Virus record (IMG/VR): IMGVR_UViG_3300022752_004854
Coordinates: 1 to 28,144 of that record
DNA: 28,144 bases
Source of the DNA: a virus
Direction: 5' to 3' (one strand)
The notes below the pieces were generated by a model, which was not told the origin of the DNA, searched no databases, and saw only the letters and a program-made list of their open reading frames with translations. Shown piece after piece: positions 3,253 to 25,422 of this stretch. Each line of letters starts with the position of its first letter. Positions within the stretch are counted from its first letter, which is position 1. Both the position numbers and the translations under genes were made by a program.

Positions 3253-3469
3253 TAAGATTGCAATAGAAGAAGGCATAGATGTGGCAGTGGGAGATTCTAT
3301 TATAGTGATCAAAGAAGACGGTTCTATTGGTCAGGTAATATTGCCAGAAGTTAATAACCCTGCACAAGAGAGCAAGGGTTACAAATTAACTTTAGATATA
3401 TTAGAATTTATTGATAGAGAAAAGGGTGCGTTAATAAGATCAGCAACTAATCGAAGGAAGTACAACTAA
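3245..3469 (+). CDS. Hypothetical small protein, 74 aa, TTG start
   Basis: The frame extends upstream to an ATG at 3206, but that start has no ribosome binding site and would lie deep inside the previous gene. A TTG at 3245 lies 6 nt after GGGAGG (3233-3238), so TTG is the likely start and gives LSNKIAIEEG... as the N-terminus. The product looks like a small beta-rich protein (VAVGDSIIVIKEDGSIGQVIL resembles a KOW or SH3-like barrel), ending in a basic tail. Function unknown. Its stop overlaps the next ATG (TAATG). Confidence 0.65.
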   Translation: MSNKIAIEEGIDVAVGDSIIVIKEDGSIGQVILPEVNNPAQESKGYKLTLDILEFIDREKGALIRSATNRRKYN

Positions 3470-4032
3470 TGCCTGATGTAGATATAGATTTTGCAAATAG
3501 AGAACAAGCACTGAAACTTTTTAAACATGTGCCTGCAGCTATTATCAAAGATGAAGATGTAGAGAAACACAAAACTGGTGTGTACTTTCAAGAAGTGCCT
3601 GTGGATCCTATTAATAATTTTTGTAGTCTTGATTATAAGAAAGCAGAAGAGCGTGGCTATTTTAAAATAGATTTATTGAATGTAAATCTTTATGAAGGTA
3701 TAAAGACAGAACAAGAATTAGTAGAGTTGATGCTGGAAGAGCCAGACTGGAACATGTTGAAAGATAAAAACATTGTGGATCAACTGTTTCATATCAATGG
3801 TCATTTTGATATAGTATCTAAATTAGAACCAAAGAACATAGAACAACTGGCAGCAGTTTTAGCAATTATAAGACCAGCCAAAAGAAATCTCATGCACAAA
3901 TATTGGTCTGAAATATTGAAAGAAGTTTGGCTGAAACCCAAAGATGACAGTTATTTTTTTAAAAAATCTCACGCTGTTGCTTATGCTCAAGCCATTGTGG
4001 TACAGATGAATCTCATACGCAAGAATACATAG
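3469..4032 (+). CDS. Miniature DNA polymerase III alpha (DnaE)-like protein, 187 aa
   Basis: The first residues, MPDVDIDF, match the C-family polymerase palm motif PDxDxDF that holds two catalytic aspartates in DnaE. Downstream, in the same order as in DnaE, come a HKTGV segment (compare HxAGV), YFKIDLLNV at 64-72 (compare LxKFDFLGL, which carries the third catalytic Asp), EQLAAVLAIIRPA at 125-137 (compare DLVALLALxRPG) and FFKKSHAVAYA at 163-173 (compare FNKSHAxAYA). DnaE is about 1,100 residues; here the motifs are compressed into 187, with no PHP, beta-binding or OB domain. It may be a domesticated remnant acting with the replisome rather than a free polymerase. AAGGAAG (3454-3460) precedes the ATG. 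Confidence 0.75.
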   Translation: MPDVDIDFANREQALKLFKHVPAAIIKDEDVEKHKTGVYFQEVPVDPINNFCSLDYKKAEERGYFKIDLLNVNLYEGIKTEQELVELMLEEPDWNMLKDKNIVDQLFHINGHFDIVSKLEPKNIEQLAAVLAIIRPAKRNLMHKYWSEILKEVWLKPKDDSYFFKKSHAVAYAQAIVVQMNLIRKNT

Positions 4033-8290: not shown

Positions 8291-8342
8291 CACGCATCTT
8301 GCTTTGGAATATCCAAACAAGAAAACAAGGAGAAAAATAGTA

Positions 8343-9401
8343 ATGAACAAGAAAACTATCGCTTTAGGCGTGTTAGCAATTGCAGCAATTGTATTGTCTG
8401 TGATTTTTACTGGCACAGCTAGAGCTCAAACAACTGCTCCATCTGTTTCTATATACGGTAGACTGGATGCCGGTGCTCAGAGTTTTGACACTGGTTCAGA
8501 AACTGTGATTAGATCAAGTGAGGGAGCATACCTACCTAGCATATTGGGATTTCGAGGCAACTCGACAGACCTGGGTGGTGTAAAATTCAACTTCCAATTA
8601 GAAGGTGGATTGAAACCCAACACTGCTCAAATAGGTTCTACCACAACCACAGGAGCAATATTTGCTCGTGAAGCTTGGGTAGGAATCAGCGGCGCAGCTG
8701 GAGAAATTAGATTCGGTACAACCGATTTAACAGATGCCACTGAATTGGATACCATAGCTAGACAATTCGGCAAATTTGGTAACCATGCTGTGAACGGATC
8801 AGCTATCGAGATTGGAGAAGATGTGGGCAATGTAATGAAATACATTTCGCCAACCATCGGTGGATTCCAAGCACAATTGGGTTACTCAGGTAATGGAGTA
8901 TCGAACACCACTGACACCACTGCAGCTATCAAGGGTGGATCTTTGGTCTACAACAATGGTCCATTGAAAGCAGGTGTAGGATATGCAGCGAAAGATGGTG
9001 TTTCAGATGCAGCAAAAACCAATGCAAAGAGCATCGGTGGTCTTTATGACTTTGGAATAGCATCTGTGGGTGCCGCTTATGTTTACGGAGACAACTCCAC
9101 AACATCAACAGTGAAATCCACTGCTAACATGTACTCTGTGAAAGTGCCTCTAGACAAGAATGGCTTGTCTGCCTATGGTTTATACACCACTGCCAAAGAT
9201 GGTGCACAAACCACTGCCAATGAGGGCAAAGGTTACACCATCGGTTTAACCAAAGAGTTAGCACCAGGTGCAGTATTGTACGGTGCGTACAGTTGGGTTA
9301 ACAATGATGCAAACTCTGCCATGTATACGAACGGCATGTCAGCGCCAGCAGCAGGTAAAGATCCAAAACTTACTGTGGTTGGAGTATCATACCAGTTCTA
9401 A
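8343..9401 (+). CDS. Phage-encoded outer-membrane porin (betaproteobacterial general-porin type), 352 aa
   Basis: A trimeric-type beta-barrel porin that would be exported to the host outer membrane and let small solutes diffuse. The start is fixed by AAGGAG; an upstream in-frame ATG at 8304 is disfavoured. The signal peptide (residues 1-28) has a basic start, a long hydrophobic core and a cleavage site after ARA. The mature protein begins with SVSIYGRLDAG, the hallmark first strand of Neisseria/Burkholderia-type porins, followed by LGFRG, LGGVKFNFQLEGG and AREAWVGISG as in that family. It ends in YQF, the C-terminal Phe recognised by the BAM machinery. Single gene with its own strong promoter. 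Host-derived origin is likely, and it could alter permeability or surface receptors during infection. Confidence 0.9.
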   Translation: MNKKTIALGVLAIAAIVLSVIFTGTARAQTTAPSVSIYGRLDAGAQSFDTGSETVIRSSEGAYLPSILGFRGNSTDLGGVKFNFQLEGGLKPNTAQIGSTTTTGAIFAREAWVGISGAAGEIRFGTTDLTDATELDTIARQFGKFGNHAVNGSAIEIGEDVGNVMKYISPTIGGFQAQLGYSGNGVSNTTDTTAAIKGGSLVYNNGPLKAGVGYAAKDGVSDAAKTNAKSIGGLYDFGIASVGAAYVYGDNSTTSTVKSTANMYSVKVPLDKNGLSAYGLYTTAKDGAQTTANEGKGYTIGLTKELAPGAVLYGAYSWVNNDANSAMYTNGMSAPAAGKDPKLTVVGVSYQF

Positions 9402-9512: not shown

Positions 9513-9713
9513 ATGGGCATACACTACACATACAAGTCACAGAGTGGCGAGCGAAACCTGCGCAAACAGCAGAAACAAGAAGAGTTGCGTAGACGCAGCG
9601 ACCAAAGAAAGCAATCGAAAGAACAGACAGAACCCACACCAGATGTTTATGTGGTACCAGACAATGAAGTGGTAACACTGGATCATCTAACCAATCCGGA
9701 TCTTAAAAAGTGA
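9513..9713 (+). CDS. Small charged protein, 66 aa
   Basis: Well supported by AGGAG 7 nt before its ATG and by a near-consensus promoter upstream. Residues 10-42 are dominated by Arg, Lys, Gln and Glu and would form a highly charged helix. The C-terminal third is acidic (PDVYVVPDNEVVTLDHL). No family recognised. Its stop overlaps the GTG start of the radical SAM gene (GTGA), so the two are coupled; it may be a partner or substrate of that enzyme, though it lacks an obvious cleavable leader-core layout. Confidence 0.7.
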   Translation: MGIHYTYKSQSGERNLRKQQKQEELRRRSDQRKQSKEQTEPTPDVYVVPDNEVVTLDHLTNPDLKK

Positions 9714-10762
9714 TTGATTCGAGACTGTTTGAACACTATCAAATAGACATTAACAAGGACCTAGGCATGACGAAAAGATGTCCTAGGCCCTTCGACACAC
9801 TGCTGATCAACAAACAGGGCAGTTGTTATCTGTGCGAATGCACAGCATGGTTACCACAGAGTGTGGGCAACATACAAACCAAGAGCATAGAAGAAATATT
9901 GAACAGCGGTATTGCTGCTGCATTGAGAGGCTCTATCTCTGATGGTTCCTACAGATATTGCAATGAGAAGCAGTGTTCTTATCTGTTGGATGCTCGAGAT
10001 GCTGCTCCGTGGCCACTAACACTGCCCACCGAACAAATACGTAATATAAGATTGGCTATCGATGATTCTTGCAATCTCAGTTGTCCCAGTTGCAGAGTTA
10101 AAAAAATATTTTTAAGCTCAGGACGATCTTTAAAAATTCGCATGGACATGGCTGATACTGTGTTAGCATATCTGCAATCACAATCACATCCTATTCATGT
10201 GCATATAGGTTCAGACGGCGATCCTTTTGCCAGTCTTGTGTATCGACATTTCATGAGAAGAGCAGAGGATATGTCACACCTATCATTCAGTATACAAACC
10301 AATGGCTTGCTGATTCGACAGATGCATCACAGAATAAAAAACATATTCTCAAGATTGCGAACTCTCAATGTCAGCATCGATGGTGCTACCAAACACACCT
10401 ATGAGCGGTTAAGACAGGGAGGATCCCACGCAAAGATACTGGATAATCTTGCTTGCATAAAAGAAATAAAAAAACAATATGGTTTTGAATTTATTCTGCA
10501 TGTGGTGGTGCAGAAGGACAACTATCATGAAATGGAACAGATGGTGGATCTGGCCGAGCAGTATGGTGCTGACAGAATTTGGTTCAATAGAATTACCAAT
10601 TGGAACACTCATGCTAATTTTGCAGAGCTGGATGTGGTTGACGAGAACAATACACAGCACCCTCAATATCTAGAGATGCTGTCTAAAATAAAACATCGAG
10701 CAGCCGGGTACGATCAAAGATTTATAGAAATGCCCACACTGGTCAGCAAGACTTTTAAATAA
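9710..10762 (+). CDS. Radical SAM protein with N-terminal twitch/SPASM-like Fe-S domain, 350 aa
   Basis: A radical SAM enzyme binds a [4Fe-4S] cluster and cleaves S-adenosylmethionine to make a radical on its substrate. The cluster motif CX3CX2C is C121-C125-C128 in DDSCNLSCPSC. Before it lies a cysteine-rich auxiliary domain: C24 in CPRPFDTL, then C39, C42 and C44 in GSCYLCEC, and C84 and C89. The phrase VGNIQTKSIEEIL is typical of SPASM/twitch proteins. Here the auxiliary domain precedes the core, as in the N-terminal-twitch radical SAM group. Start is GTG overlapping the previous stop; an internal ATG at 9767 is an alternative. Substrate unknown. Confidence 0.85.
   Translation: MIDSRLFEHYQIDINKDLGMTKRCPRPFDTLLINKQGSCYLCECTAWLPQSVGNIQTKSIEEILNSGIAAALRGSISDGSYRYCNEKQCSYLLDARDAAPWPLTLPTEQIRNIRLAIDDSCNLSCPSCRVKKIFLSSGRSLKIRMDMADTVLAYLQSQSHPIHVHIGSDGDPFASLVYRHFMRRAEDMSHLSFSIQTNGLLIRQMHHRIKNIFSRLRTLNVSIDGATKHTYERLRQGGSHAKILDNLACIKEIKKQYGFEFILHVVVQKDNYHEMEQMVDLAEQYGADRIWFNRITNWNTHANFAELDVVDENNTQHPQYLEMLSKIKHRAAGYDQRFIEMPTLVSKTFK
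10754..10761 (+). promoter_or_regulatory. Late-type promoter box TTTAAATA
   Basis: One mismatch from the late consensus; lies over the stop of the radical SAM gene, 5 nt before the ATG at 10767. Weak on its own. Confidence 0.3.
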
Positions 10763-10766
10763 ACAT

Positions 10767-11327
10767 ATGAAACCATTCCATCCACTGACCTGTCATTCGC
10801 TATCGGAAATACAACAACAGGTGCTGCTGTGGATACAATCAAAAAATCCTGCAGTGTTGACCAGCAATCGTTTATGGAACAAAATTAACACTTCTGATCT
10901 AGTAAAGTCCTGTCCTGCACTGATACAATATTGTCAATCACTGGATTTAAAAATACGTGAAGTGGCTCTAACAATCGTTAATGCAAAAGAAGATGCAGAC
11001 CTGCACATCGACGAGTTACCGGTCACTGCCAAGATCAACATACCCATACTGAACACTGAGCATACTTTTAATAGATGGTATGAGATACCTGCAGAGCTAT
11101 TGGCAGCAACACAGCCCGTAATAAATGAGTTTGGAAAAAAATATTACACTTTTAAAAATGTAGATTACTCAAAATTACGATTGTTAGGGGAAATAGAGTT
11201 ACTAACTCCTGTGGTGTTTAACAGTCAGATAGCACACAACATTGTGTTGGACGAAGATTGTCGTTTTCCTAGAATTGTGCTGTCTTGTACTTTCTTTAAA
11301 GAACCGCTGTATCTTTTAGAAGATTAA
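10767..11327 (+). CDS. Putative Fe(II)/2-oxoglutarate oxygenase-like protein, 186 aa
   Basis: The pattern of a double-stranded beta-helix oxygenase can be seen: H80-x-D82 in DLHIDELP, a KINIPILNTE strand, then H157 in SQIAHNIV and R169 in FPRIVLSCTF, matching the HxD...H...R layout in which two His and one Asp hold iron and the Arg binds 2-oxoglutarate. The N-terminal 70 residues are helical and unassigned. Starts 4 bp after the radical SAM gene on the same strand and is probably co-expressed. Convergent with the next gene, with a 4-bp overlap. Hydroxylation of a peptide or small molecule is plausible but unproven. Confidence 0.55.
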   Translation: MKPFHPLTCHSLSEIQQQVLLWIQSKNPAVLTSNRLWNKINTSDLVKSCPALIQYCQSLDLKIREVALTIVNAKEDADLHIDELPVTAKINIPILNTEHTFNRWYEIPAELLAATQPVINEFGKKYYTFKNVDYSKLRLLGEIELLTPVVFNSQIAHNIVLDEDCRFPRIVLSCTFFKEPLYLLED

Positions 11328-12421
11328 AAGTTTTTCATGCCTTGCTCGTTTAGATAGGTGCTCATTATCTCTCGAAGAGTATTTTTATCTCTAGACTTAG
11401 GTGCACACAATCCACAAGAACAACGATTGGCTCGACATTGTATCACAGGAAACTCTCCTTTTGCTAACATAGTGTCTACTCTATTAATGTATTCATCCAT
11501 GTTGTCCATGGTGGCCAATGGTCCCAGTGTGCCTTTTATGGTATTGTGACAATCTCTGTTGGAATAAAATTCTCGAGTCATGGAATTGGCTGTAAGAAAG
11601 AACCAACTCACACTGCAGTACCATCCATTGAAGTTTACTTCTTGTGGAAAATAGTTGTGTGTTTCTTTTATGTTTCTATCAAAACACATCTTTCTTCCTC
11701 CGCAACAGGCTCGGCCAGCTCCAGATAATTTTTGTAGTTTTTCTTCTTTTAAATCAATGTTATAAAATGTTTTTAGGTATTCTACTTGTTCTCGATTGTA
11801 AAAATATGGTCCTTCCAGTATTTTAGGACGAAATATTATTTTTTCTTCTTTGCACCACTCTATAAAAGCAACACAGTCTTGCCAATACTCCGGTTGATTG
11901 TGCATCAGCACCACCATGTCATAGTTTACACGAGTGTCTCTCATGTAGATTAAATTATTTTTTACATTCTGTTTTAATTTGTCTGGTCCTTCAGAATGAT
12001 AACTGACTGTGATACCTTCAATATTATCACAAACATATTTCCATTTTTCCAGAGGACTGGTAGCATTGGTGGTTAATCTTCTATTAAGATGCCAACGATC
12101 TTGATAGGGTTTATACAGTTCCGATGATGCTGTTAGAATGCGTTCCATTTCAGGGTGATATAGAACCTCGCCGCCCAATAGATTCATTATGGCAGTTTTG
12201 GATTTTTCTTTTTTATACTTGGAAATTACATCCACATAACGATACATCTGCTCCAACATCTTTAAGCAGTCATCCACAGGAGGATGTGGTATTTTATTAT
12301 TGTGTCCCCAATCTGTGGAACAATAAGAACAATCATAATTACACTTCAATGTAACTTTCCAATCCAACAGTATACTCATAGTTTGGGCTGGTAGATAAGC
12401 AGGCTCTATGGTTTGTATCAT
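11324..12421 (-). CDS. Radical SAM protein with C-terminal cysteine-rich domain, 365 aa
   Basis: The radical SAM motif is near the N-terminus, C27-C31-C34 in KCNYDCSYC, followed by the LLGGEVLYHP segment (the GGE motif that contacts SAM). Unlike the other four radical SAM proteins in the window, the auxiliary cysteines are C-terminal: GRACCGGRKMC around residues 235-245 and CRANRCSCGLC at 329-339, a SPASM-like arrangement for extra Fe-S clusters. The ATG at 12421 follows a late-type AATAAATA box. It faces away from the SDR gene across a 47-bp divergent region. Substrate unknown. Confidence 0.85.
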   Translation of the reverse strand: MIQTIEPAYLPAQTMSILLDWKVTLKCNYDCSYCSTDWGHNNKIPHPPVDDCLKMLEQMYRYVDVISKYKKEKSKTAIMNLLGGEVLYHPEMERILTASSELYKPYQDRWHLNRRLTTNATSPLEKWKYVCDNIEGITVSYHSEGPDKLKQNVKNNLIYMRDTRVNYDMVVLMHNQPEYWQDCVAFIEWCKEEKIIFRPKILEGPYFYNREQVEYLKTFYNIDLKEEKLQKLSGAGRACCGGRKMCFDRNIKETHNYFPQEVNFNGWYCSVSWFFLTANSMTREFYSNRDCHNTIKGTLGPLATMDNMDEYINRVDTMLAKGEFPVIQCRANRCSCGLCAPKSRDKNTLREIMSTYLNEQGMKNF

Positions 12422-12430
12422 GATTGAAAA

Positions 12431-12438
12431 TATTTATT
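12431..12438 (-). promoter_or_regulatory. Late-type promoter box AATAAATA (minus)
   Basis: Read on the minus strand, 9 nt before the ATG at 12421. Forms a divergent pair with the box at 12454. Confidence 0.5.
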
Positions 12439-12453
12439 GGCTACATTTTTGTC

Positions 12454-12461
12454 TGTAAATA
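12454..12461 (+). promoter_or_regulatory. Late-type promoter box TGTAAATA
   Basis: One mismatch from TATAAATA, 7 nt before the ATG at 12469, the same spacing as at 4043. Confidence 0.45.
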
Positions 12462-12468
12462 ACTGATA

Positions 12469-13032
12469 ATGAAAATCGCTATAACAGGACATACCGGTGG
12501 TATTGGTAAATCTTTTTCTAAATCTCTTGCTGCTCGTGGACACGAAATTATTGGTATAAGTCGCAGTGGAGGAGAGAATATTCGAAGAATTGAACACACT
12601 GCTTCCATTATAGAACCCTGTGATCTGTTTATAAACAATGCACAATCTATGTTTGCCCAAACAGAATTATTGTATGAAGTTTGGAAAAGATGGCAAGGAC
12701 AAAAAAAATATATTTGGAATATCAGCACAGCAATGACACAGTCTCCAATTAACTCTGCTCCGGATGGACAGGATGATATTGCTATGAGTTTATATCGAAT
12801 ACAGAAATTATCATTAGAGGAAGCATCTAAACAACTGAGTCATAAGAATGTTTGGCCCAGTATATCTGTCATACGTCCGGGCGGTGTGGCCACACAAAAA
12901 GAATGGAACAACGAAAACAAACAAGATGTTGATGAGTGGACCAAATCTGTCATTGATATTTTTACTGCTCATCCTAATACTCACATACCAGACATATCCG
13001 TAACATATAGAAAAACAAAACTAGAGCTGTAA
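12469..13032 (+). CDS. Short-chain dehydrogenase/reductase, 187 aa
   Basis: An NAD(P)-dependent oxidoreductase of the SDR family. The Rossmann motif TGHTGGIG (6-13) binds the cofactor, INNAQ (56-59) is the NNAG equivalent, Ser86 in NISTAM and the YRIQK motif (Y109, K113) supply the catalytic residues, and VIRPGGVAT is the post-catalytic proline segment. At 187 residues it is shorter than the usual 240-260, having lost loops and the C-terminal substrate region, but keeps every core motif. Stop and next start overlap (TAATG), coupling it to the following radical SAM gene, so both probably act on the same substrate. Confidence 0.85.
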   Translation: MKIAITGHTGGIGKSFSKSLAARGHEIIGISRSGGENIRRIEHTASIIEPCDLFINNAQSMFAQTELLYEVWKRWQGQKKYIWNISTAMTQSPINSAPDGQDDIAMSLYRIQKLSLEEASKQLSHKNVWPSISVIRPGGVATQKEWNNENKQDVDEWTKSVIDIFTAHPNTHIPDISVTYRKTKLEL

Positions 13033-14174
13033 TGGACGCTAAGAATTATATAAAAAATAAAAGCTTCTGTCCTTTGCCGTGGACAGGATTTATTGTGCAT
13101 CAAAACGGAGATGTAAGAAATTGCGTGTTGAGCAAAAGCAAAATAGGCAATCTCAAAGACAATTCTATACAAGAAATAGTCAATGGAGAAAAAAATAATG
13201 AGATTAAAAAACAAATGTTATCCAATAATAAACCAAAGAGTTGTGACGGTTGTTATCGATTAGAAGAAAACAAAAACAGTTTTGATATTGTTAGTCAAAG
13301 AATATATTATCTTAAAGAGTTAAAATCAGTAGATCCTACTCTATATAATTCTGTAAACAATTTTAATTTGCATACAGTGGATCTAAGATGGACTAACCAA
13401 TGTAATCAAGCCTGTGTGTATTGTGGTCCACACAATAGTAGCATGTGGGTAAAAGAGATTGGCAGTGAAGATCTCATGAGCCAAGAGAAAAAACAACAAC
13501 TAAAAGAATATGTTTTTGCCAATGTTAAAAATTTAAAAAATGTTTATCTTGCTGGCGGAGAACCATTATTGATGAACGAGAACCAAGAGTTTTTAGAATT
13601 ACTAATGAAAGAAAATCCAAATGTAACACTAAGAGTTAATACTAATCTATCTGCTACAGAAACCAAAGTGGGCAGAATGATTAAACAGTTTAAAAATGTA
13701 CATTGGATTGTGAGTGTGGAATCTACAGGTGCAGCATATGATTATATTAGATACGGTGGTTCATGGAACGCATTTTGTAACAATCTTGAAGAGTTAAAAA
13801 ACACAACAGATCATAAAATTTCATTCAACATGTTATACTTTGTTTTAAATTATATTAAATTATTTGATTGCGTGGATTTTTTAAGAAGTGCAGGGTTCCA
13901 TGAAAATTCTTTTGTTATTGGTCCTCTGTATGGGCCAGAGTATCTAAATATTTTAAATCTACCACAAGAAAAAATAGATCAAGCAAAAAAGATATTAGAG
14001 GATAGAATACAAAGTAAACCTGGTTATTTTTTACAGGACAGTTATTCAAATCTATTAAAATACTTAGACACGACTTATGAAAAAAATCTACAAAGTACAT
14101 TTGATGGGTTGGCTAAATTAGATACAAGAAGAAAATTAGACAGTAAAAAAATATTTGGAGAAGTGTATGATTAA
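13032..14174 (+). CDS. N-terminal-twitch radical SAM protein, 380 aa
   Basis: The radical SAM cluster motif is C124-C128-C131 (QCNQACVYC), followed by the YLAGGEPLL segment that binds the SAM methionine part. An N-terminal Fe-S domain precedes it: C13 in CPLPWTGFIV, C31 after NGDVRN, then C71 and C74 (SCDGC), with the IGNLKDNSIQEIV phrase typical of twitch/SPASM domains. No C-terminal cysteine cluster is seen. The gene is coupled to the SDR upstream and overlaps the sulfotransferase-like gene by 8 bp, forming a four-gene run (SDR, radical SAM, sulfotransferase-like, radical SAM). Substrate unknown. Confidence 0.87.
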   Translation: MDAKNYIKNKSFCPLPWTGFIVHQNGDVRNCVLSKSKIGNLKDNSIQEIVNGEKNNEIKKQMLSNNKPKSCDGCYRLEENKNSFDIVSQRIYYLKELKSVDPTLYNSVNNFNLHTVDLRWTNQCNQACVYCGPHNSSMWVKEIGSEDLMSQEKKQQLKEYVFANVKNLKNVYLAGGEPLLMNENQEFLELLMKENPNVTLRVNTNLSATETKVGRMIKQFKNVHWIVSVESTGAAYDYIRYGGSWNAFCNNLEELKNTTDHKISFNMLYFVLNYIKLFDCVDFLRSAGFHENSFVIGPLYGPEYLNILNLPQEKIDQAKKILEDRIQSKPGYFLQDSYSNLLKYLDTTYEKNLQSTFDGLAKLDTRRKLDSKKIFGEVYD

Positions 14175-14739
14175 AGTTGTGGAATTGTTGCCTGGCAAAT
14201 TTGTTCTTCCAATATTTAAAAATGGGTTATCCAGCATAGAAGCCTATGCCAAAGAAAAAAACATTAAATGGGTAATCAATGAACAACTTAAAAATATAGA
14301 CACAATAACTGTATTTTTACGAGAACCTGCAGAACGTTTTGTATCTGGAGTACACAGTTTTATAGAGTTTGAAAAAAGAAAAAATAAAGAGCTAGATTAT
14401 AACACAATGTTGTATTGTATAGAGAACCATTCTGTACGTAATGAACACTTCATGCCACAGTTTTTCTTTTTAAAAAATCTCACAAAATATTTTACTGGAT
14501 TGGTAGACTTGCGAGGAGTAAGTGAACTTAAAGAGTGGATACCAAATAGAAACAAACCTGCAATACCAGACATAACCAATGAGCAAAAAGAAAGAGTATC
14601 TAAAATCAAATACGAAGATTTAAAATATGACAATTTACTTTTTGAAAGACACATGTATAAGATTGCTGATACCTTTTATGTTAGTAAAAAAATAAACATA
14701 AGATCGTTGGTTGCAGAGATTGAATATGCACTGTCCTAG
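14167..14739 (+). CDS. Sulfotransferase-family-like protein, 190 aa
   Basis: Two PAPS-binding signatures of sulfotransferases are visible: the 5'-phosphosulfate loop in LPIFKNGLSSI (residues 13-23) and the 3'-phosphate motif in FLREPAERFVSG (about 50-61). Such enzymes move a sulfo group from PAPS to a sugar, lipid or protein hydroxyl. The protein is short (typical 250-300 aa). A TTG at 14155 could extend the frame, but ATG 14167 has GGAGAAG just upstream and is preferred. Overlaps the neighbouring radical SAM genes on both sides, so it is tightly coupled. It may be a divergent or reduced member; activity is inferred. Confidence 0.68.
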   Translation: MIKVVELLPGKFVLPIFKNGLSSIEAYAKEKNIKWVINEQLKNIDTITVFLREPAERFVSGVHSFIEFEKRKNKELDYNTMLYCIENHSVRNEHFMPQFFFLKNLTKYFTGLVDLRGVSELKEWIPNRNKPAIPDITNEQKERVSKIKYEDLKYDNLLFERHMYKIADTFYVSKKINIRSLVAEIEYALS

Positions 14740-15751
14740 ACTCGATCATTTCGCTAGAATAAATCACAATGGTAAGATTGGCAAATGTGGACACATGACT
14801 GGAGCAAAAGAATTTGATTCTTTTGATGAAATGCAAAATAGCTCATGGTTAAAAAACATAAAAGAAAAAATGCAAGATCAACAGTGGCCTGCTGAATGTG
14901 TGCGTTGCCGAATGACTGAAGAGTCTACTAATACCAGCATACGTTTGGATATGATAGAGAGAGATAGAATATTAAGTGCGATTAAAAAAGATTATCTAAT
15001 AGTTGGGGGAGTATTGGATAATATTTGTAACAGTGCTTGTCAAACTTGCCACAGCGGGCTTAGTACCAAGATAGGTAGCCTGTCTTCTAAAGATTATGAG
15101 AAGGTCAACAACTATGAAACATTTTTTACTTTTCCCCAAGATAGAATTTGTGAAGTAGATGTCAACGGAGGAGAACCTACTGCCAGTCCTAACTATAAAA
15201 AATTATTAAAGAATCTACCAAAGTCTGTAAAAATTGTAAGAATCAATACCAACGGTTCAAAAGTTATTGCAGAGTTAGAAGAGTTACTATCTCAAGGCAT
15301 ACGAGTAATTGTTACTTTAAGTTTTGATGGTGTGGGTAATGTGCATAACTATGTGAGATGGCCTGTGCTTTGGGAAAACTTTAATAGTAATGTAAAAAAA
15401 TATATTACACTAAGAGAAACATATTCCAATTTAAGATTAAACTTTTGGACCACTGTAAGCTCTTTGAATGTAGGAGATTTAAAAAATATTATCGATTACG
15501 CAACACAACAACAAATAGATCATGCATATGGTTTTTGTATTAGACCCGATGTGTTGGACATCAGACACGAGAACAAATTAACCGTAGCTGCTAAAGAATC
15601 TTTATCCAAAATAGATAACGAGTTATTAAATTCTATTGCAAATAAATGCGGTTCTTTTAAAAAGAACAATGATACAGAATTAAAAAAATTTATTTCTTCT
15701 CAAGACGCTTTAAGAAATATTGATTATAAAATTTATTTTAACGAAGTTTAG
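14726..15751 (+). CDS. N-terminal-twitch radical SAM protein, 341 aa
   Basis: Radical SAM motif C101-C105-C108 (ICNSACQTC), followed by VNGGEPTASP (GGE motif). The N-terminal auxiliary Fe-S domain has C3 (CPRLDHFARI), C21 (NGKIGKC), C58 and C61 (ECVRC), the same layout as the proteins at 13032 and 25415. The ATG at 14726 lies inside the previous gene (14-bp overlap) after a GAG-containing purine stretch; a TTG at 14711 is less likely. Its 3' end overlaps by 14 bp the convergent SGNH-hydrolase gene. Similarity in layout suggests a paralogous set acting on related substrates. Confidence 0.87.
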   Translation: MHCPRLDHFARINHNGKIGKCGHMTGAKEFDSFDEMQNSSWLKNIKEKMQDQQWPAECVRCRMTEESTNTSIRLDMIERDRILSAIKKDYLIVGGVLDNICNSACQTCHSGLSTKIGSLSSKDYEKVNNYETFFTFPQDRICEVDVNGGEPTASPNYKKLLKNLPKSVKIVRINTNGSKVIAELEELLSQGIRVIVTLSFDGVGNVHNYVRWPVLWENFNSNVKKYITLRETYSNLRLNFWTTVSSLNVGDLKNIIDYATQQQIDHAYGFCIRPDVLDIRHENKLTVAAKESLSKIDNELLNSIANKCGSFKKNNDTELKKFISSQDALRNIDYKIYFNEV

Positions 15752-16445
15752 TATTAAATCTCTGTAGGAATAATCTAGCAAATACTTCATGATGTTCTTT
15801 GCCATAGTGTATGCCATCTTTGGCAAGACTAGGTTCGCTGTGTAATTCTCTTTTCTTGTGTTTATCCCACTCAGGCCAACAGTTGCTTATGGTATAATCT
15901 TTTAAGATTGATAAAGTGTTTTCCATGTATATGTCATATGCTTCTTGTGCAAAACAATGAAATGTTTTGGCTCCAACTTTTTCTGCAAATTTTTCTAAAA
16001 AGAATACATTTTTTAAAAAGTTATTTTGATCTGTGTGGTTGTTCTCTGTTTTTAATGATTCACTATTGCTGGTTAAACTTTGAGGGAATTGATCTAGTCT
16101 TTCTCTTCTACTCCATGCTGGCCAACAAGCAACAATTATTTTAGGAAATATTACTTTTTCTGTGCCATATAATATTCTAATCATTTGATCAGCACTAGCA
16201 CCCGGGCGTGATAGATTCCACCATCTCAATATTTTATTTGATTTTTTTGCTACTTGACTTATCCATATTTCTTCTTGTTCAAGTCCTTCTCCAAATGTGT
16301 GTGAGCAACCAAGCACTACCACGTTCTTTCCACCATCAGGCAGTGGACGAAATTCTGGACAACGATATCCATACGAGTTGGTTTTATATCCATTTACAGG
16401 ATTAAACTTAGGTAAATCGTTGTCTGCGTAATAGCCGTGTTTCAT
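15738..16445 (-). CDS. SGNH/GDSL-type hydrolase-like protein, 235 aa
   Basis: SGNH hydrolases are esterases or acetyl hydrolases with a Ser-Asp-His site. Block I is VVVLGCSHTFGEGL (nucleophile S48 in GCSHTFG), and the C-terminal DGIHYG gives the Asp210-x-x-His213 pair. The segment NLSRPGASADQM around residue 80 resembles block II (the oxyanion Gly). Members of this branch often remove or add acyl groups on carbohydrates. It is convergent with the radical SAM gene and has its own upstream late-type box. Near a sulfotransferase-like gene, glycan modification is a reasonable guess. Confidence 0.75.
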   Translation of the reverse strand: MKHGYYADNDLPKFNPVNGYKTNSYGYRCPEFRPLPDGGKNVVVLGCSHTFGEGLEQEEIWISQVAKKSNKILRWWNLSRPGASADQMIRILYGTEKVIFPKIIVACWPAWSRRERLDQFPQSLTSNSESLKTENNHTDQNNFLKNVFFLEKFAEKVGAKTFHCFAQEAYDIYMENTLSILKDYTISNCWPEWDKHKKRELHSEPSLAKDGIHYGKEHHEVFARLFLQRFNTKLR

Positions 16446-16524: not shown

Positions 16525-16533
16525 TCTTTGTAT

Positions 16534-17280
16534 ATGCAAGAGCCTAAAACAAAAACATGGAAAGACTTTGATTCTCGAGAAGAATTTTTTCGTTATTTAG
16601 GTTATTATCATTATGATAAAAATCGTGATGAAACAGATTCTTATAAAATTTTAGGAAAAGTAACTCAAGATTTTAGCAAAGAAGTTATATGGTTAAAAGA
16701 AAATATAGAAACTATTAAAAAAAACTGGAATGATCAAAGTCCTGCACAAGTTGCTAAGAGTGTTAAAGAACTAGGACCAAAAGCACAAGCAGTAATGGCA
16801 GCACAATCTAATGATAAAAAACTTGCTGGATATAAAGATAATCAACCCATGTATAGAGTGAATAATGCTGATCCTAACAGTGTTTTTTATAAAGTTGCAG
16901 AAAAATTAGGACTTGAATATCCGCTTGCTCGTTGGCATATACAATTTCCTGGCGAAATGACTTTTTGGCACGTAGATATTTTTAATCCTGCTCATAAATT
17001 TTTACCTCCAATTGCACACAATCTTCCTGATGAAAAAATTGGTCACGATAATAATATACGTCGTATAATGGTGGCTCTAGAAGATTGGGATTGGGGACAA
17101 GTTGCTATGTTTGGCAAAACTTCTTACACAGGATGGACAGCAGGAGATATTGTTTACTGGCCATATGGTATGCCGCATGCTTTAGCTAATTGTGGATTAA
17201 CTCCTAGAATGAGTATCAGTATTACAGGAATGATTACTCCTTTGTTTAAAGAAAATTTAGAAAAAGTACAGAACTATTAA
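16534..17280 (+). CDS. Putative cupin/JmjC-like Fe(II) 2-oxoglutarate oxygenase, 248 aa
   Basis: The C-terminal half (residues 130-235) reads as a double-stranded beta-helix. RWHIQFPGEMTFWHVDIF holds H146-x-D148, then come RRIMVALEDWDWGQV, a GWTAGDIVYWPYGMPHA segment with H215 as the third iron ligand, and R225 (TPRMSIS) as a likely 2-oxoglutarate contact. The N-terminal part is helical and unassigned. A TTG two codons upstream is not needed; ATG 16534 is used. Codons and base composition are clearly more AT-rich than in the genes at 9.5-12 kb, suggesting separate acquisition together with the two following genes. Confidence 0.68.
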   Translation: MQEPKTKTWKDFDSREEFFRYLGYYHYDKNRDETDSYKILGKVTQDFSKEVIWLKENIETIKKNWNDQSPAQVAKSVKELGPKAQAVMAAQSNDKKLAGYKDNQPMYRVNNADPNSVFYKVAEKLGLEYPLARWHIQFPGEMTFWHVDIFNPAHKFLPPIAHNLPDEKIGHDNNIRRIMVALEDWDWGQVAMFGKTSYTGWTAGDIVYWPYGMPHALANCGLTPRMSISITGMITPLFKENLEKVQNY

Positions 17281-17584: not shown

Positions 17585-18727
17585 ATGAATCAAAGTATTC
17601 AATGGTTTAGCCATAAACATTTTGATCAAATTTTAAAATTACATGGTCAATCTGGCAAATCTTATAACTTTAACGGATATAAAGATTTACATAATCTATA
17701 TCTAATAAATTGTGTTTTTAGTTCTGCCCCATGGGGAGATATTATTGATAGAAGCGGAAAAACAAATTATCCTTTTAAAATTCATATAAGAAACAAATGG
17801 AAAAAACCAGATTCTAAATTAAAGAATATTGATCTAGAATCTGCTTGTAACTCTAGAGTTGAGGAAATTATTAATAAATTTTCTGCTCCATATAATCTTT
17901 ATTGGAGTGGAGGTATAGATAGTACTCTTATGGTTATAAGTTTTTTAAAAAGAGTGAATTCTAAAGATATAAACGTATGTTTAACAAATAGTAGTATTGA
18001 AGAAAATATATTTTTTTATGAAAATTTTATAAAAAAAAATAATCATTGTTTTGTAGATGTACGGAATAATTTTCCAAAAGGAACTAACATATCAGCTGAG
18101 TGCGGAGATACTATTTGGGCTGCTTTAGATCATAGTTTCTTTTTTGGAGACACTAAAGAATATGTTTTTAAAAATTGGCAAGAATATTTTGAGTTAAAAA
18201 ATAAAGATTCTAATTTTTTAGAATCTGCATTTAATTTTATGAAAAATGCAGAACGTCCTATTACAACTCTTCTAGAAGCAAGATGGTGGTTTTATTTTTT
18301 GTGTAAACATCAAAGCAAAGCCACTGCTTTATTAATTCAACATCATCATTTAAATATTGATTGGGTTAGTTTTTATGAAAGCAGCGATATTGAAACATGG
18401 AGTTGGTTTAATATAGAAAATATTATTAAAAAAAATAATTGGTTAACTTATAAATTTCCAGCTAAAGAAATAATTTACAATTTTGATAAAAATTTAGATT
18501 ATTATAACAATAAAACAAAAGGCTATAGTTTAGGCTTACATAATCCTAATAATTATTTTAATTTAGACTTATTCCACCGACCTCTGTTTATTACAGAAAA
18601 TTTAGAAAAACCGATGTTATCTACAGAACCTTTTTTTTCAAAAGAGGCTTATAAACAAGAATTTTATGAAAAATACAAACATTTGTTTGTGGTGGAGGAT
18701 AGCGGGATCGAACCGCTGACCTCCTGA
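17585..18727 (+). CDS. PP-loop ATP-pyrophosphatase (asparagine-synthetase-like), C-terminus running into a tRNA gene
   Basis: The motif LYWSGGIDSTLM (about residues 104-115) is the SGGxDS PP-loop that binds ATP and adenylates a substrate carboxyl or carbonyl, as in asparagine synthetase and related amide-forming enzymes. There is no N-terminal glutaminase Cys, so any nitrogen donor would be ammonia or an amine. Downstream His/Trp-rich segments are unassigned. The last 12 codons, reading SGIEPLTS at the end, are encoded by the antisense of the tRNA-Ala gene (18690-18765), and the stop lies in its anticodon arm. The original C-terminus was therefore probably lost or replaced. Very AT-rich. Confidence 0.75.
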   Translation: MNQSIQWFSHKHFDQILKLHGQSGKSYNFNGYKDLHNLYLINCVFSSAPWGDIIDRSGKTNYPFKIHIRNKWKKPDSKLKNIDLESACNSRVEEIINKFSAPYNLYWSGGIDSTLMVISFLKRVNSKDINVCLTNSSIEENIFFYENFIKKNNHCFVDVRNNFPKGTNISAECGDTIWAALDHSFFFGDTKEYVFKNWQEYFELKNKDSNFLESAFNFMKNAERPITTLLEARWWFYFLCKHQSKATALLIQHHHLNIDWVSFYESSDIETWSWFNIENIIKKNNWLTYKFPAKEIIYNFDKNLDYYNNKTKGYSLGLHNPNNYFNLDLFHRPLFITENLEKPMLSTEPFFSKEAYKQEFYEKYKHLFVVEDSGIEPLTS

Positions 18728-21282: not shown

Positions 21283-22338
21283 TTAGAATTTATAACGAAT
21301 TGAGCCTATGATTTGACTGCCGTAATCTGTGTGTGTGCCTGTGTATACGGAAGTTTTTTCTTTATCGTGCAGATACAAACCAAACTCCAATCCCTTCCTT
21401 TTGTCAGGTCTTTTATCTTGATCATCCTGTGTCATTATTTGATAAACGAGCCCATAGTAATTGCCTGTGTAACCTAGGTCGTCGTGCTCGGTTCTGTGTG
21501 CTGTGAGATAAAGATTATCATTAACACTGTAAAGTCCACCTATATCAAATCTTTTTTTACCTGACAATCCTGTGTCTTTGTCGTCCCATAATTCAATTCC
21601 CCATATGGCTGGAATGCCCCAACGATGCAGTGCTCCTCCAATAGAGAGACCTTCTTGGTGTTTGCTGGTTGTGTAGTATCCTGCTGTTGCTGGAGAATCA
21701 ATTCTCATATAAGATATATCAAACAATCCCAACACTCCCACAGTGGCAGATGAGTAATAGGTATTGGTTAGATTGTCAAATCCTAACACCACACCATATG
21801 GCATGTCTTTCTTTAAACGATAGGAATCAAATTCAAACTCGTTGTCCCATTGGAATCCGCCAATTGCCAGCACTGCTTTTTCTCCATGATCTATTCTGCT
21901 GTTGGGCTGAGTGATAATGATGGGTGCTCCAATTTTGGGAGTCTTTGCAAATCCTAATCTCTGAGCATCTGTTTCTCCCAGATACAATCTATAATAATCG
22001 TTGCCCAATCCTATCTGTTTATTAACCAGTGAGTTGTCTTTGGTATGGTCGGCATCGTAATATGAGTCGTATAGGCTCGATGCTCCAATCCAATTCACAT
22101 AAGGATTGTTTAAGGTTTGTTGTATGCCAATCTGTATTTCTGCTCGAGAATCAAAACCGTTGTCATAGGTTCTGTCATCATAGTAGGCCTCGATATTGCC
22201 GTGAATGAATAGTCCTCTAGGCAAATCAATTTTGTTAGATTCTAAGTTTTGAATTCTTTTTTCTAGGTCTGCTATTTTCTTCTCATCAGCTGAAGCCATC
22301 GCAGACAACAACAACATTACCAATATTATTTTTTTCAT
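21283..22338 (-). CDS. Second outer-membrane porin-like beta-barrel, 351 aa
   Basis: The signal peptide is MKKIILVMLLLSAMASA, with cleavage likely after ASA; the longer frame from 22392 is rejected because it would put 18 extra residues before the signal. The mature N-terminus holds a short coiled coil (EKKIADLEKRIQNLES), as in trimeric porins with periplasmic coils, then alternating aromatic-polar strands (GNIEAYYDDRTYD, AEIQIGIQQ) and a final strand SIRYKF with the C-terminal Phe used by BAM. Different from the porin at 8343. It starts 7 bp after the bilin-reductase stop, so it is the distal gene of that operon. A pore or binding barrel in the host outer membrane is the likely role. Confidence 0.78.
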   Translation of the reverse strand: MKKIILVMLLLSAMASADEKKIADLEKRIQNLESNKIDLPRGLFIHGNIEAYYDDRTYDNGFDSRAEIQIGIQQTLNNPYVNWIGASSLYDSYYDADHTKDNSLVNKQIGLGNDYYRLYLGETDAQRLGFAKTPKIGAPIIITQPNSRIDHGEKAVLAIGGFQWDNEFEFDSYRLKKDMPYGVVLGFDNLTNTYYSSATVGVLGLFDISYMRIDSPATAGYYTTSKHQEGLSIGGALHRWGIPAIWGIELWDDKDTGLSGKKRFDIGGLYSVNDNLYLTAHRTEHDDLGYTGNYYGLVYQIMTQDDQDKRPDKRKGLEFGLYLHDKEKTSVYTGTHTDYGSQIIGSIRYKF

Positions 22339-22345
22339 TAATGTA

Positions 22346-23029
22346 TTATACTTTAGGAAATAGATTATCCGCAAGGAATACTTTGACATCATCTTCTGGT
22401 AATCCCAAAGACAGCATGGCTCGAGGCACGTGTGGATTTAGTTGCTGTTGCTCACAATAATAATTCTGTCCTTGTTTTATTTCTTCCAATCGATCGTCTC
22501 CGTTGTAATTTGGTAATTGTTCTAGGTAGTATTTTAAAGTATATTCTGCCATACCACAGATCTGATCCAACTCTTTTTCTTCTTGTATATTGCCTGCTGC
22601 TATCATACCATCGCTGAATATGTTTTTGGCCCACTGGGGCAATTCTCTTTCTTTATTAGGTTTATAAGATTTGGTATTGTCGATAAACCATTGAGTCAGA
22701 GGATGACCTTTTCTTTTCAATGAAGATATATCGTGAAATGCTCCTGTTACTTTATTTTGTCCTGACACAATATCAAACCCATAGATCGGTCCACTGTTAT
22801 GCAACACAGGAAACATGCACACGTGTATGATCCATAGTTTTTTACTTTCTCTAGCATCTACCACTTCCACATGAGCTCTCCTCAAACTATCGCTTCTCCA
22901 AGTACGATTAGTCCAACCATATTTGGTATTATTAAATCTTTCCATGCTGGGTTCGTGATATTCTTCGCAATTTTGATTTAAAATATTAACAATATTATCT
23001 TTACACTGTATAAGTTTTTTCCAAATCAT
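22346..23029 (-). CDS. Ferredoxin-dependent bilin reductase (PcyA/PcyX-like), 227 aa
   Basis: Reduces biliverdin IX-alpha to a phycobilin with electrons from ferredoxin. Landmarks of the family follow the order in Synechocystis PcyA: RRAHVEV with Glu55 (equivalent to E76), WIIHVCMFP with His69 (H88), YGFDIVSG with Asp86 (D105), then LPQWAKNIFS, and QGQNYYCEQQQLN near the C-terminus. All three PcyA proton-transfer residues are kept, whereas PebS has Asn in place of the His. PcyX, known from oceanic virus metagenomes, is a PcyA relative making phycoerythrobilin; motif reading cannot tell the product. Heads an operon with the porin at 21283; a late-like TATAAGTA lies at 23039-23046. Confidence 0.88.
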   Translation of the reverse strand: MIWKKLIQCKDNIVNILNQNCEEYHEPSMERFNNTKYGWTNRTWRSDSLRRAHVEVVDARESKKLWIIHVCMFPVLHNSGPIYGFDIVSGQNKVTGAFHDISSLKRKGHPLTQWFIDNTKSYKPNKERELPQWAKNIFSDGMIAAGNIQEEKELDQICGMAEYTLKYYLEQLPNYNGDDRLEEIKQGQNYYCEQQQLNPHVPRAMLSLGLPEDDVKVFLADNLFPKV

Positions 23030-24385: not shown

Positions 24386-24955
24386 TTAATAATTTTTTTC
24401 TAAAAGATACATTTCTTTGAATAATTCTGTAGCATATTCGAAACAAATTTTTGCTTCAGCAACTACATCATCGGTATCTGTTTTCATGTAACTGTTAATT
24501 GTTTCTCTAATTACTTGTATTAATTCTTTAGTATTATCAAAATCTAAATAGGTATTAGCGCCAGGTGTTCTTGTTTTTATCATTTGCCCTCCATAGAGAT
24601 CTCCTAGATATCTTACGTATACATGAGCAAACAATTTTGCTGGTTCTCTCCTGATATTATCGATGTGTTCTACATATCTTTTTGTGCTGTTTGTTATCTC
24701 TGGTTGAGGGGTTATACGCACCCAAAGATCTTGACAATCATATGCTAATTTTTCTGCTCTTGCTATATTGGGTAGACGATCTAATAATCCTTGATACTGT
24801 GACCATTTTTCTAGAGCACCATAACAGTGTGATAGATTATAAAGAAATGTGGCATATAGTCTTGGGTGTATTTCTCCAGACATTAATATTTTTACAAACT
24901 CTTGTTGCTCGGCTCGGCGATGCTGTTCTTTAGTTGCTTCTCTTATGTCTATCAT
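24386..24955 (-). CDS. Heme oxygenase, 189 aa
   Basis: Opens the heme ring to biliverdin IX-alpha, CO and Fe(II) using ferredoxin electrons and O2. The proximal heme ligand is His12 in TKEQHRRAEQ, and the distal-helix signature YLGDLYGGQM (116-125) has the Gly residues over the heme. Length fits phage and bacterial HO1. The frame reaches 24976, but ATG 24955 overlaps the preceding stop (ATGA) and aligns with the usual N-terminus. It supplies the substrate for the bilin reductase at 22346, though the two genes lie in separate minus-strand units split by the MFS gene. Confidence 0.92.
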   Translation of the reverse strand: MIDIREATKEQHRRAEQQEFVKILMSGEIHPRLYATFLYNLSHCYGALEKWSQYQGLLDRLPNIARAEKLAYDCQDLWVRITPQPEITNSTKRYVEHIDNIRREPAKLFAHVYVRYLGDLYGGQMIKTRTPGANTYLDFDNTKELIQVIRETINSYMKTDTDDVVAEAKICFEYATELFKEMYLLEKNY

Positions 24956-25422
24956 ATATTCTTTTCGTATATCCAACCCATGCCTTGTGTTTCTGTTTCA
25001 AATATCCACTGGTATACCGGCCAAGTAAATTCTAAATACCATTCACCATTAAAACCTAAGTAGTTAGAATTAATTATAGGATCCACCGATAGATTGTTTT
25101 CTTTTGCATATTGATAGTAACCTTTTGTATATGTTGGAGAATATTTGCTCTGTAACATGAAACTGGAATAATGAAATCCTTCTACCCCGATACTTTTAAC
25201 TATTATGGCTTTGTCTTTGTCTCCTATAGTATCTCGTTCAGTTTTATTAAGAAAAAATACACTTAATCGATTGGTGTCTTTTGCTGGCAAAGCCCAATTA
25301 AATTTTTTAATCTCTCCTAGATAATCTTCGAATAAAATCGATTGATTAAATTCTATTTTAATTTTAGGTTTCTCTGCCCAAAATTTTGGTTCTAATTCTA
25401 GTGTTAGTTTAACATCACGCAT
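24952..25422 (-). CDS. Hypothetical beta-rich protein coupled to radical SAM and heme oxygenase, 156 aa
   Basis: No sure family. Alternating strands (VKLTLELEP, PKIKIEFNQSILF), a central HYSSFM segment and a W/Y-rich C-terminal part (GEWYLEFTWPVYQWIF) suggest a beta-sandwich, perhaps a carbohydrate-binding-like module. Upstream ATGs at 25461 and 25443 exist, but ATG 25422 has AAGGA about 9 nt before it and the shortest overlap with the radical SAM gene (8 bp). Its stop overlaps the heme oxygenase start. The tight coupling suggests joint expression of radical SAM, this protein and heme oxygenase. Confidence 0.65.
   Translation of the reverse strand: MRDVKLTLELEPKFWAEKPKIKIEFNQSILFEDYLGEIKKFNWALPAKDTNRLSVFFLNKTERDTIGDKDKAIIVKSIGVEGFHYSSFMLQSKYSPTYTKGYYQYAKENNLSVDPIINSNYLGFNGEWYLEFTWPVYQWIFETETQGMGWIYEKNI

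Follow-up and report, generated by a model that had tools for sequence, protein, structure and literature searches.

A phage gene cassette encoding radical SAM, sulfotransferase-fold and reductase proteins, with a candidate role in tailoring

Gene content of the island

The sequence analyzed here, hereafter the window, is the complete IMG/VR virus record IMGVR_UViG_3300022752_004854 (28,144 bases). It contains an island of genes (Table 1) for four radical S-adenosylmethionine (SAM) proteins, a short-chain dehydrogenase/reductase (SDR), a sulfotransferase-fold protein (ST), an HxD...H protein and an SGNH-type protein, all of which had been named in a first-pass annotation made from the sequence alone, and all of which were recovered here with Pfam and NCBIfam profiles, motifs and predicted folds. 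Four of these genes, those for SDR, ST and the radical SAM proteins rSA and rSB, are referred to as the core. The interval 9710-15751 delineated in the first pass encloses the core, but the SGNH gene that closes the island extends beyond it.

The island includes two runs of overlapping plus-strand genes, 9513-11327 and 12469-15751. Because these runs are separated and followed by minus-strand genes, the island is not one operon: the overlaps from which joint expression had been proposed are real, but they do not add up to a single transcription unit. Alignments place the likely starts of ST and rSB at ATG 14167 and ATG 14726, respectively, so that the overlaps of these genes are probably shorter than the open reading frame (ORF) list gives. 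The second HxD protein (16528) and a PP-loop-like protein (17585) were considered as further island members and left out, because relatives of them are scarce or lacking among the loci described next.

Related loci were collected in three scans, with rSA, rSB and the SDR profile as queries. All locus counts given here refer to the nearest relatives returned by these pattern scans, not to all viruses; many loci are represented by short fragments, and certain samples contributed more than one.

Table 1. Genes of the island and other features of the window
Feature	Coordinates	Strand	Basis or remark
Small ORF	9513-9713	+	66 aa, Cys-free, rich in K, R and Q; overlaps the rSAM9710 start; cluster of 9 loci, conserved in the window lineage
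rSAM9710, radical SAM with N-terminal SPASM/twitch	9710-10762	+	Pfam PF04055, E 3e-11; PF13186, E 2e-6
HxD...H protein, predicted 2OG-Fe(II) oxygenase fold	10767-11327	+	Motif and predicted fold; present in 53 loci
rSAM11324, radical SAM with Cys-rich SPASM-like C-terminal domain	11324-12421	-	PF04055, E 1.8e-6, just under cut-off
SDR, short reductase (core)	12469-13032	+	187 aa; motifs; profile relatives among solved SDRs
rSA, radical SAM with N-terminal twitch (core)	13032-14174	+	NF033640, 270.6 bits
ST, compact protein of predicted PAPS-sulfotransferase fold (core)	14155-14739	+	194 aa; conserved residues and predicted fold
rSB, radical SAM with N-terminal twitch (core)	14711-15751	+	NF033640, 135.3 bits; twitch and core Cys
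SGNH-type protein	15738-16445	-	Motifs; convergent with rSB, which it follows in nearly all window-lineage loci
Second HxD protein	16528-17280		Almost no relatives among the loci
Fifth twitch radical SAM	25415-26743	-	NF033640, 241 bits
UvsW-like helicase, primase, DnaB/gp41-type helicase			Left part of the window
FTR1, methyltransferase, DUF59 protein, bilin reductase, MFS transporter, heme oxygenase, ClpP			Right part of the window, with the fifth twitch radical SAM
DnaE-like piece (weak match)	3469-4032		187 aa
Gram-negative porin	8304-9401		PF13609, E 1e-34
PP-loop-like protein	17585-18727		380 aa
Porin-like protein, secreted	21283-22392		No Pfam match
Bilin reductase and heme oxygenase segment	22346-24976		MFS transporter between them on the opposite strand
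169-aa protein	24952-25461	-	Overlapped by the fifth twitch radical SAM

Three of the four radical SAM proteins of the island, rSAM9710, rSA and rSB, have an N-terminal twitch domain, as the first pass had it; rSAM11324 lacks this domain and has a Cys-rich C-terminus instead. Pfam and NCBIfam located the SPASM stretch at residues 24-89 of rSAM9710 and residues 13-75 of rSA (E 2e-10). The NCBIfam family NF033640 (N_Twi_rSAM) has the same architecture, an N-terminal twitch joined to a radical SAM domain, and a curated cut-off of 170 bits for the whole-protein score. This cut-off is passed by rSA and by the fifth twitch radical SAM protein of the window, whereas rSB, scored over 316 residues, and rSAM9710 (52 bits) stay below it. 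The latter two have this architecture without qualifying as members on the curated score, and form conserved groups of their own; the family name denotes an architecture, not a function.

The CxxxCxxC and GGE-like motifs characteristic of the radical SAM superfamily are invariant in rSA, rSB and rSAM11324. The twitch cysteines C13, C31, C71 and C74 of rSA are, together with CxxxCxxC and GGEP, essentially invariant among 145 relatives, and the same holds for C8, C26, C63 and C66 of rSB with its CxxxCxxC and GGEP among 119 relatives. rSAM11324 contains CxxxCxxC (C27/C31/C34), GGE and eight conserved C-terminal cysteines. The CxxxCxxC of rSAM9710 (C121/C125/C128) is invariant as well, and GSDGDP stands where the other proteins have GGEP. 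In several loci (L008, L009, L017, L024 and L111), the recombinase gene uvsX is followed by a gene for a relative of rSAM11324 without the Cys-rich C-terminus, and the next gene encodes a separate 104-aa Cys-rich protein. This small protein resembles the C-terminus of rSAM11324, sharing a GW.C block with it (the profile match is weak, 11 columns), and the two genes possibly encode a split radical SAM enzyme with a stand-alone SPASM-like subunit.

Among 148 relatives of SDR, G7, G11 and G13 of the GxxxGxG motif, N56, and Y109 and K113 of the YxxxK motif are invariant or nearly so, as in typical SDRs, and the SDR profile matches solved SDR structures. The profile search of solved structures found nothing for ST or for the HxD...H protein, and therefore their folds were predicted. 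For the AlphaFold model of ST (predicted local distance difference test score, pLDDT, 92), the 28 best matches in the VIA comparison are all sulfotransferases, headed by heparan-sulfate 3-O-sulfotransferases (Z 6.4, root-mean-square deviation (rmsd) 4.5, 151 residues). Foldseek alone gave no significant match for ST (no E below 0.12), and Pfam Sulfotransfer_2 (PF03567) reached 15.4 bits (E 0.02) against a gathering cut-off of 22. In 139 proteins, R56, R61, G65, H98 and Q102 of ST are invariant, K22 and S64 are conserved at 95-96%, and D159 is conserved. We take K22 to be the lysine of the 5'-phosphosulfate loop, and R56 and S64, eight residues apart, to be the arginine and serine of the 3'-phosphate site. 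Given the consistent list of sulfotransferase matches and the conserved lysine, arginine and serine, ST is, by predicted fold and motif, a putative sulfotransferase dependent on 3'-phosphoadenosine-5'-phosphosulfate (PAPS).

The structural model of the HxD...H protein (pLDDT 95) confirmed a predicted 2-oxoglutarate (2OG)-Fe(II) oxygenase fold, with Foldseek matches to such folds down to E 4e-5; H80xD82, H157 and R169 are invariant among 44 relatives. Its best fold in the VIA comparison (Z 12.0, rmsd 2.4, 134 aligned residues) is a non-heme nucleoside-antibiotic hydroxylase. The SGNH-type assignment was confirmed at the level of motifs, GCS48-x-T-x-G and D210xxH213 being invariant among 22 relatives; Pfam yielded no match for this protein.

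Conservation of the core and its genomic contexts

The first-pass annotation had named the same genes found singly and shuffled in relatives as the pattern that would speak against a conserved set. A gene-neighborhood search did not find this pattern. Among interior loci, that is, loci with enough flank, all four core genes are present in 18 of the 19 retrieved with rSA, 17 of the 20 retrieved with rSB (ST in all 20, SDR in 18 and rSA in 17) and 22 of the 22 retrieved with SDR. In a total of about 155 loci, the arrangements seen most often are ST-rSB-SDR-rSA (63), ST-rSB-oxygenase-SDR-rSA (35) and SDR-rSA-ST-rSB (15); ST overlaps rSB without exception in 145 pairs, and SDR overlaps rSA in 92%. 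Based on these orders and overlaps, the unit consists of two gene pairs, ST-rSB and SDR-rSA, whose order can be swapped. Some loci hold ST-rSB alone, and this pair is the least dispensable part. The core genes are under purifying selection, with dN/dS of about 0.05-0.15 to the nearest relatives in most computable pairs, many dS values being saturated. The core is very probably a conserved functional cassette.

In the window lineage (about 20 loci), the gene order is dnaB - rSAM9710 - oxygenase (on either strand) - rSAM11324 (minus) - SDR - rSA - ST - rSB - SGNH (minus), with certain members missing from some loci. The more frequent context is a jumbo T4-related clade, in which gp32, encoding a single-strand DNA-binding protein, is directly upstream of the cassette in 108 loci and uvsX is directly downstream in 106. 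One UvsX from this clade, that of locus L124, shares 65-68% identity with UvsX of the jumbo phages Phosso, Atu_ph07, CBB and GAP32. In the isolates Phosso, Atu_ph07 and 2.275.O, the single-strand DNA-binding protein gene adjoins uvsX, with 50-80 bases between them; the Phosso gene in this position is unnamed and matches in size and place.

When uvsX alone was used for the scan, the slot between gp32 and uvsX held the cassette in 15 loci, was empty in 22 and held other genes in 38. In a tree built from uvsX of 160 loci, the state of the cassette changes at least 31 times, compared to a mean of 42 and a minimum of 37 with shuffled labels; gain and loss are not distinguishable on this tree. Given the variable contents and these changes of state, the gp32-uvsX interval is a cargo slot, and the cassette is one of its frequent occupants. 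Ten representative non-cassette occupants of the slot (loci L166-L243) had no Pfam match, and comparison of this interval across phages offers a way to list other phage cargo. The first-pass suggestion of a possible phage biosynthetic pathway thus holds up, since the genes form a conserved and compact set that is maintained by purifying selection and passes as cargo from one phage context to another.

Beyond the related loci, megablast of window positions 1-25000 against isolate phages gave no match. A tblastn search of 50,697 phage records, in which ST and the oxygenase were not among the queries, detected no match for rSB or SDR, and only a distant one for rSA (27% to Vibrio phages K566 and K567). 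The rSB profile matched a single contig in 84,980 species genomes (one scan, two short patterns), a 10-kb contig of a metagenome-assembled genome (L165). This contig begins with a phage-type DnaB, bears most of a window-type island and is probably a mis-binned phage; a cellular origin of the cassette was rejected because this sole match looks like phage. The absences hold for the collections scanned and the two short patterns, and are not proof of absence; within this scope, the cassette was seen in neither an isolate nor a cellular genome.

To our knowledge, a phage pathway combining a sulfotransferase with radical SAM enzymes has not been described. The open-access literature searched is consistent with the first-pass statement that this combination is not used by any known phage pathway: neither the cassette nor the gp32-uvsX slot was found described in its main texts. 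Phages with many radical SAM genes, and radical SAM cassettes as such, are already known. PaaD, mentioned next, belongs to the DUF59 family. Fe-S-rich environmental T4-like phages carry up to 12 radical SAM genes along with paaD, clpP and Fe-S genes (Nishimura et al. 2017, PMC5332604), and, like them, the window encodes a DUF59 protein, ClpP, FTR1 and heme oxygenase. That article counts radical SAM genes; no description of a conserved ST-rSB-SDR-rSA cassette or of the gp32-uvsX slot was found in it, and its main text does not contain the word "sulfotransferase". According to the main text of a study of pelagimyophage host-recognition clusters, T4-like phages of uncultured hosts have variable radical SAM "gene cassettes", which adjoin glycosyltransferase genes thought to alter host lipopolysaccharide (PMC7029224); those cassettes are located in the structural host-recognition region, whereas the present one is beside replication genes. 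The observation of many radical SAM genes in environmental T4-like phages is hereby narrowed to a defined unit of 4-5 genes with a preferred slot and intact active sites.

Possible function of the cassette

The cassette can be pictured as two coupled modules, the nearly invariant ST with rSB, and SDR with rSA, to which the 2OG-Fe(II) oxygenase would be an optional addition; in the window lineage, two further radical SAM enzymes and the SGNH protein would join in. We infer that its expression coincides with that of the early or middle replication genes and that its enzymes work within the infected cell. rSA and rSB would perform radical redox chemistry (oxidation, dehydration or epimerization) on a hydroxyl-bearing acceptor, SDR would reduce a keto intermediate, the oxygenase would add a hydroxyl, and ST would sulfate a hydroxyl with host PAPS. 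An adenosine 5'-phosphosulfate (APS) kinase was not found in two long contigs, possibly incomplete ones, so PAPS would come from the host. The likeliest acceptor would be a sugar, which could be free, linked to a nucleotide or contained in a host envelope glycan, and the likeliest benefit would be envelope remodeling, for example, to exclude competing phages. That this is a virus-borne tailoring cassette acting on a sugar acceptor, with surface-glycan tailoring as its role, is the reading we tentatively favor, with somewhat less than even confidence. It is conceivable, if rather doubtful, that the cassette represents a virus-specific pathway without a close cellular counterpart, which yields a sulfated product new to biology (a sugar, a nucleoside, or a DNA or envelope modification) and is traded as a unit by jumbo phages via the gp32-uvsX slot.

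The carbohydrate reading is based on the ST fold, on the analogy with radical SAM-SDR pairs in aminocyclitol pathways, and on sugar genes in the same phages. The best structural matches of ST are sulfotransferases of the heparan-sulfate type, namely 3-O-sulfotransferase (3-OST), 2-O-sulfotransferase (2-OST) and N-deacetylase/N-sulfotransferase (NDST), with Z 5.4-6.4 over about 150 aligned residues, but ST is far shorter and only 5-16% identical to them. AprD4/AprD3 is a radical SAM and SDR pair of aminoglycoside biosynthesis with a sugar or cyclitol substrate, and BtrN, a twitch enzyme, acts on aminocyclitols or sugars. The likeness of the cassette to these systems is one of enzyme types, a radical SAM-SDR pair and a twitch; their steps are not known to involve a sulfotransferase, and the twitch is C-terminal in BtrN but N-terminal in rSA and rSB. 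Downstream of uvsX, phages of the jumbo clade have genes for GDP-mannose 4,6-dehydratase, a nucleotidyltransferase/mannose-phosphate-isomerase fusion, GT25 and FkbM proteins, and NodU-type carbamoyltransferases (Pfam) adjoin other twitch radical SAM arrays in the same clade. The Gram-negative porin gene of the window was also counted in favor of this reading.

Several findings weigh against this sugar-acting role. Relatives without the cassette have the downstream sugar-nucleotide genes about as often. Of ten families tested, only one showed mild enrichment (36 of 59 versus 9 of 29, uncorrected p 0.012), which is possibly biased, the model for that family having been derived largely from cassette loci. 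Neither a glycosyltransferase nor a glycan carrier was found inside the cassette. The fold similarity of ST is modest (the top match cited above), and a fold does not fix the substrate. Several loci lack rSA and a few lack SDR; the pathway would have to tolerate their loss. In mirror-tree comparisons with the uvsX/gp32 signal removed, the partial correlation among SDR, rSA and rSB is only 0.27-0.28, and ST has no extra correlation with SDR or rSA, tracking uvsX and gp32 more than its partners.

The mix of ST, carbamoyltransferases and oxygenases also resembles natural-product tailoring, which would fit a small diffusible or intracellular metabolite (aminocyclitol-like, a modified amino acid or a nucleotide) acting on the host or on rival phages. 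The best fold of the oxygenase, a nucleoside-antibiotic hydroxylase (Z 12.0), points the same way, as do jumbo relatives with separate twitch radical SAM arrays beside carbamoyltransferases (Pfam) and amidinotransferase-like proteins (recognized by eye only). However, many families share the oxygenase fold within 1 to 2 Z units, and the cassette lacks a scaffold-building enzyme and an exporter; we consider such a metabolite unlikely. A ribosomally synthesized and post-translationally modified peptide, with rSA and rSB as its maturases, appears improbable. Peptide maturases are common among SPASM/twitch radical SAM enzymes, rSB matches SkfB weakly by profile (E 4e-6), and the 66-aa ORF ahead of rSAM9710 is conserved in the window lineage; but the SkfB match spans the generic radical SAM core only, rSA and rSB show no C-terminal SPASM domain of the kind that maturases usually have, and the ORF, Cys-free and confined to the window lineage, looks like a basic low-complexity sequence. 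The short precursor peptide that the first pass recommended looking for was not found in the cassette: gaps of at least 60 bases occur in only 27 of 725 adjacent gene pairs, nearly all outside the core or filled by a gene, which in nearly all loci leaves no room for a precursor among the cassette genes, the part of the genome covered by this search; one may be encoded elsewhere. Of the candidate products listed in the first pass, a surface glycan is best fitted by the ST fold, and a peptide is disfavored.

Proteins are the targets of many 2OG oxygenases and radical SAM enzymes, and a small protein family recurs beside other radical SAM genes of these phages (hhalign probability 96.7), so the cassette might decorate a virion or host protein post-translationally. 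Its location next to replication rather than structural genes, with no candidate substrate protein traveling along, makes this decidedly improbable. The same location, between the genes for a single-strand DNA-binding protein and a recombinase, could instead hint at making or decorating a modified DNA base, and AlkB-type enzymes are also among the fold matches of the oxygenase. The slot, however, is elsewhere empty or filled with unrelated cargo, ST is closest to glycan sulfotransferases, and no thymidylate synthase/dCMP hydroxymethylase-type gene (PF00303) was found in 13 records, which include contigs of 340 kb and 183 kb and may be incomplete; DNA hypermodification is rated very improbable. 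Finally, the genes could be unrelated auxiliaries that merely share a hot spot, given the many different occupants of the slot, the occasional absence of SDR and rSA, and the weak co-evolution signal noted above. The same four genes are found together in both contexts and in two different orders, with overlapping ends and invariant active sites, and the set stays intact across the sampling here, which renders this last possibility exceedingly improbable.

Phage lineage and other genes

The DnaB-type helicase of the window shares about 50% identity with its counterparts in the jumbo phages PA5oct and Paride, and 47% with that of Atu_ph07. Judging from these identities, the window phage is probably akin to the large T4-related phages. 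A protein starting with MPDVDIDF and kept in 7 loci has a weak match to the DNA polymerase III finger, and may be a strongly reduced DnaE-like piece.

The bilin reductase of the window, a ferredoxin-dependent enzyme, is 60% identical to that of Pelagibacter phage Mosig. Together with heme oxygenase, FTR1 and the DUF59 protein, it suggests an iron or Fe-S supply theme. Two porin-like genes in a phage genome raise the question of whether they serve outer-membrane remodeling. The PP-loop-like protein contains an SGGIDS motif, has no Pfam match and no relatives among the fetched loci, and the end of its gene overlaps a tRNA-Ala gene on the opposite strand.

The family of the 169-aa protein that accompanies the fifth twitch radical SAM also adjoins a B12-type radical SAM gene in other phages, for example, in loci L011 and L080 (hhalign probability 96.7, E 4e-10); is it a recurring small partner, or a substrate, of phage radical SAM enzymes? 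The records behind loci L294 (340 kb) and L308 (183 kb) have 13 and 14 twitch radical SAM family matches per phage contig, with arrays of at least five such genes near NodU-type carbamoyltransferases and amidinotransferase-like proteins. The isolate Vibrio phage K566 (L247) encodes three radical SAM proteins a few genes away from a PagP lipid A acylation gene, and offers a cultured system for studying phage twitch radical SAM enzymes.

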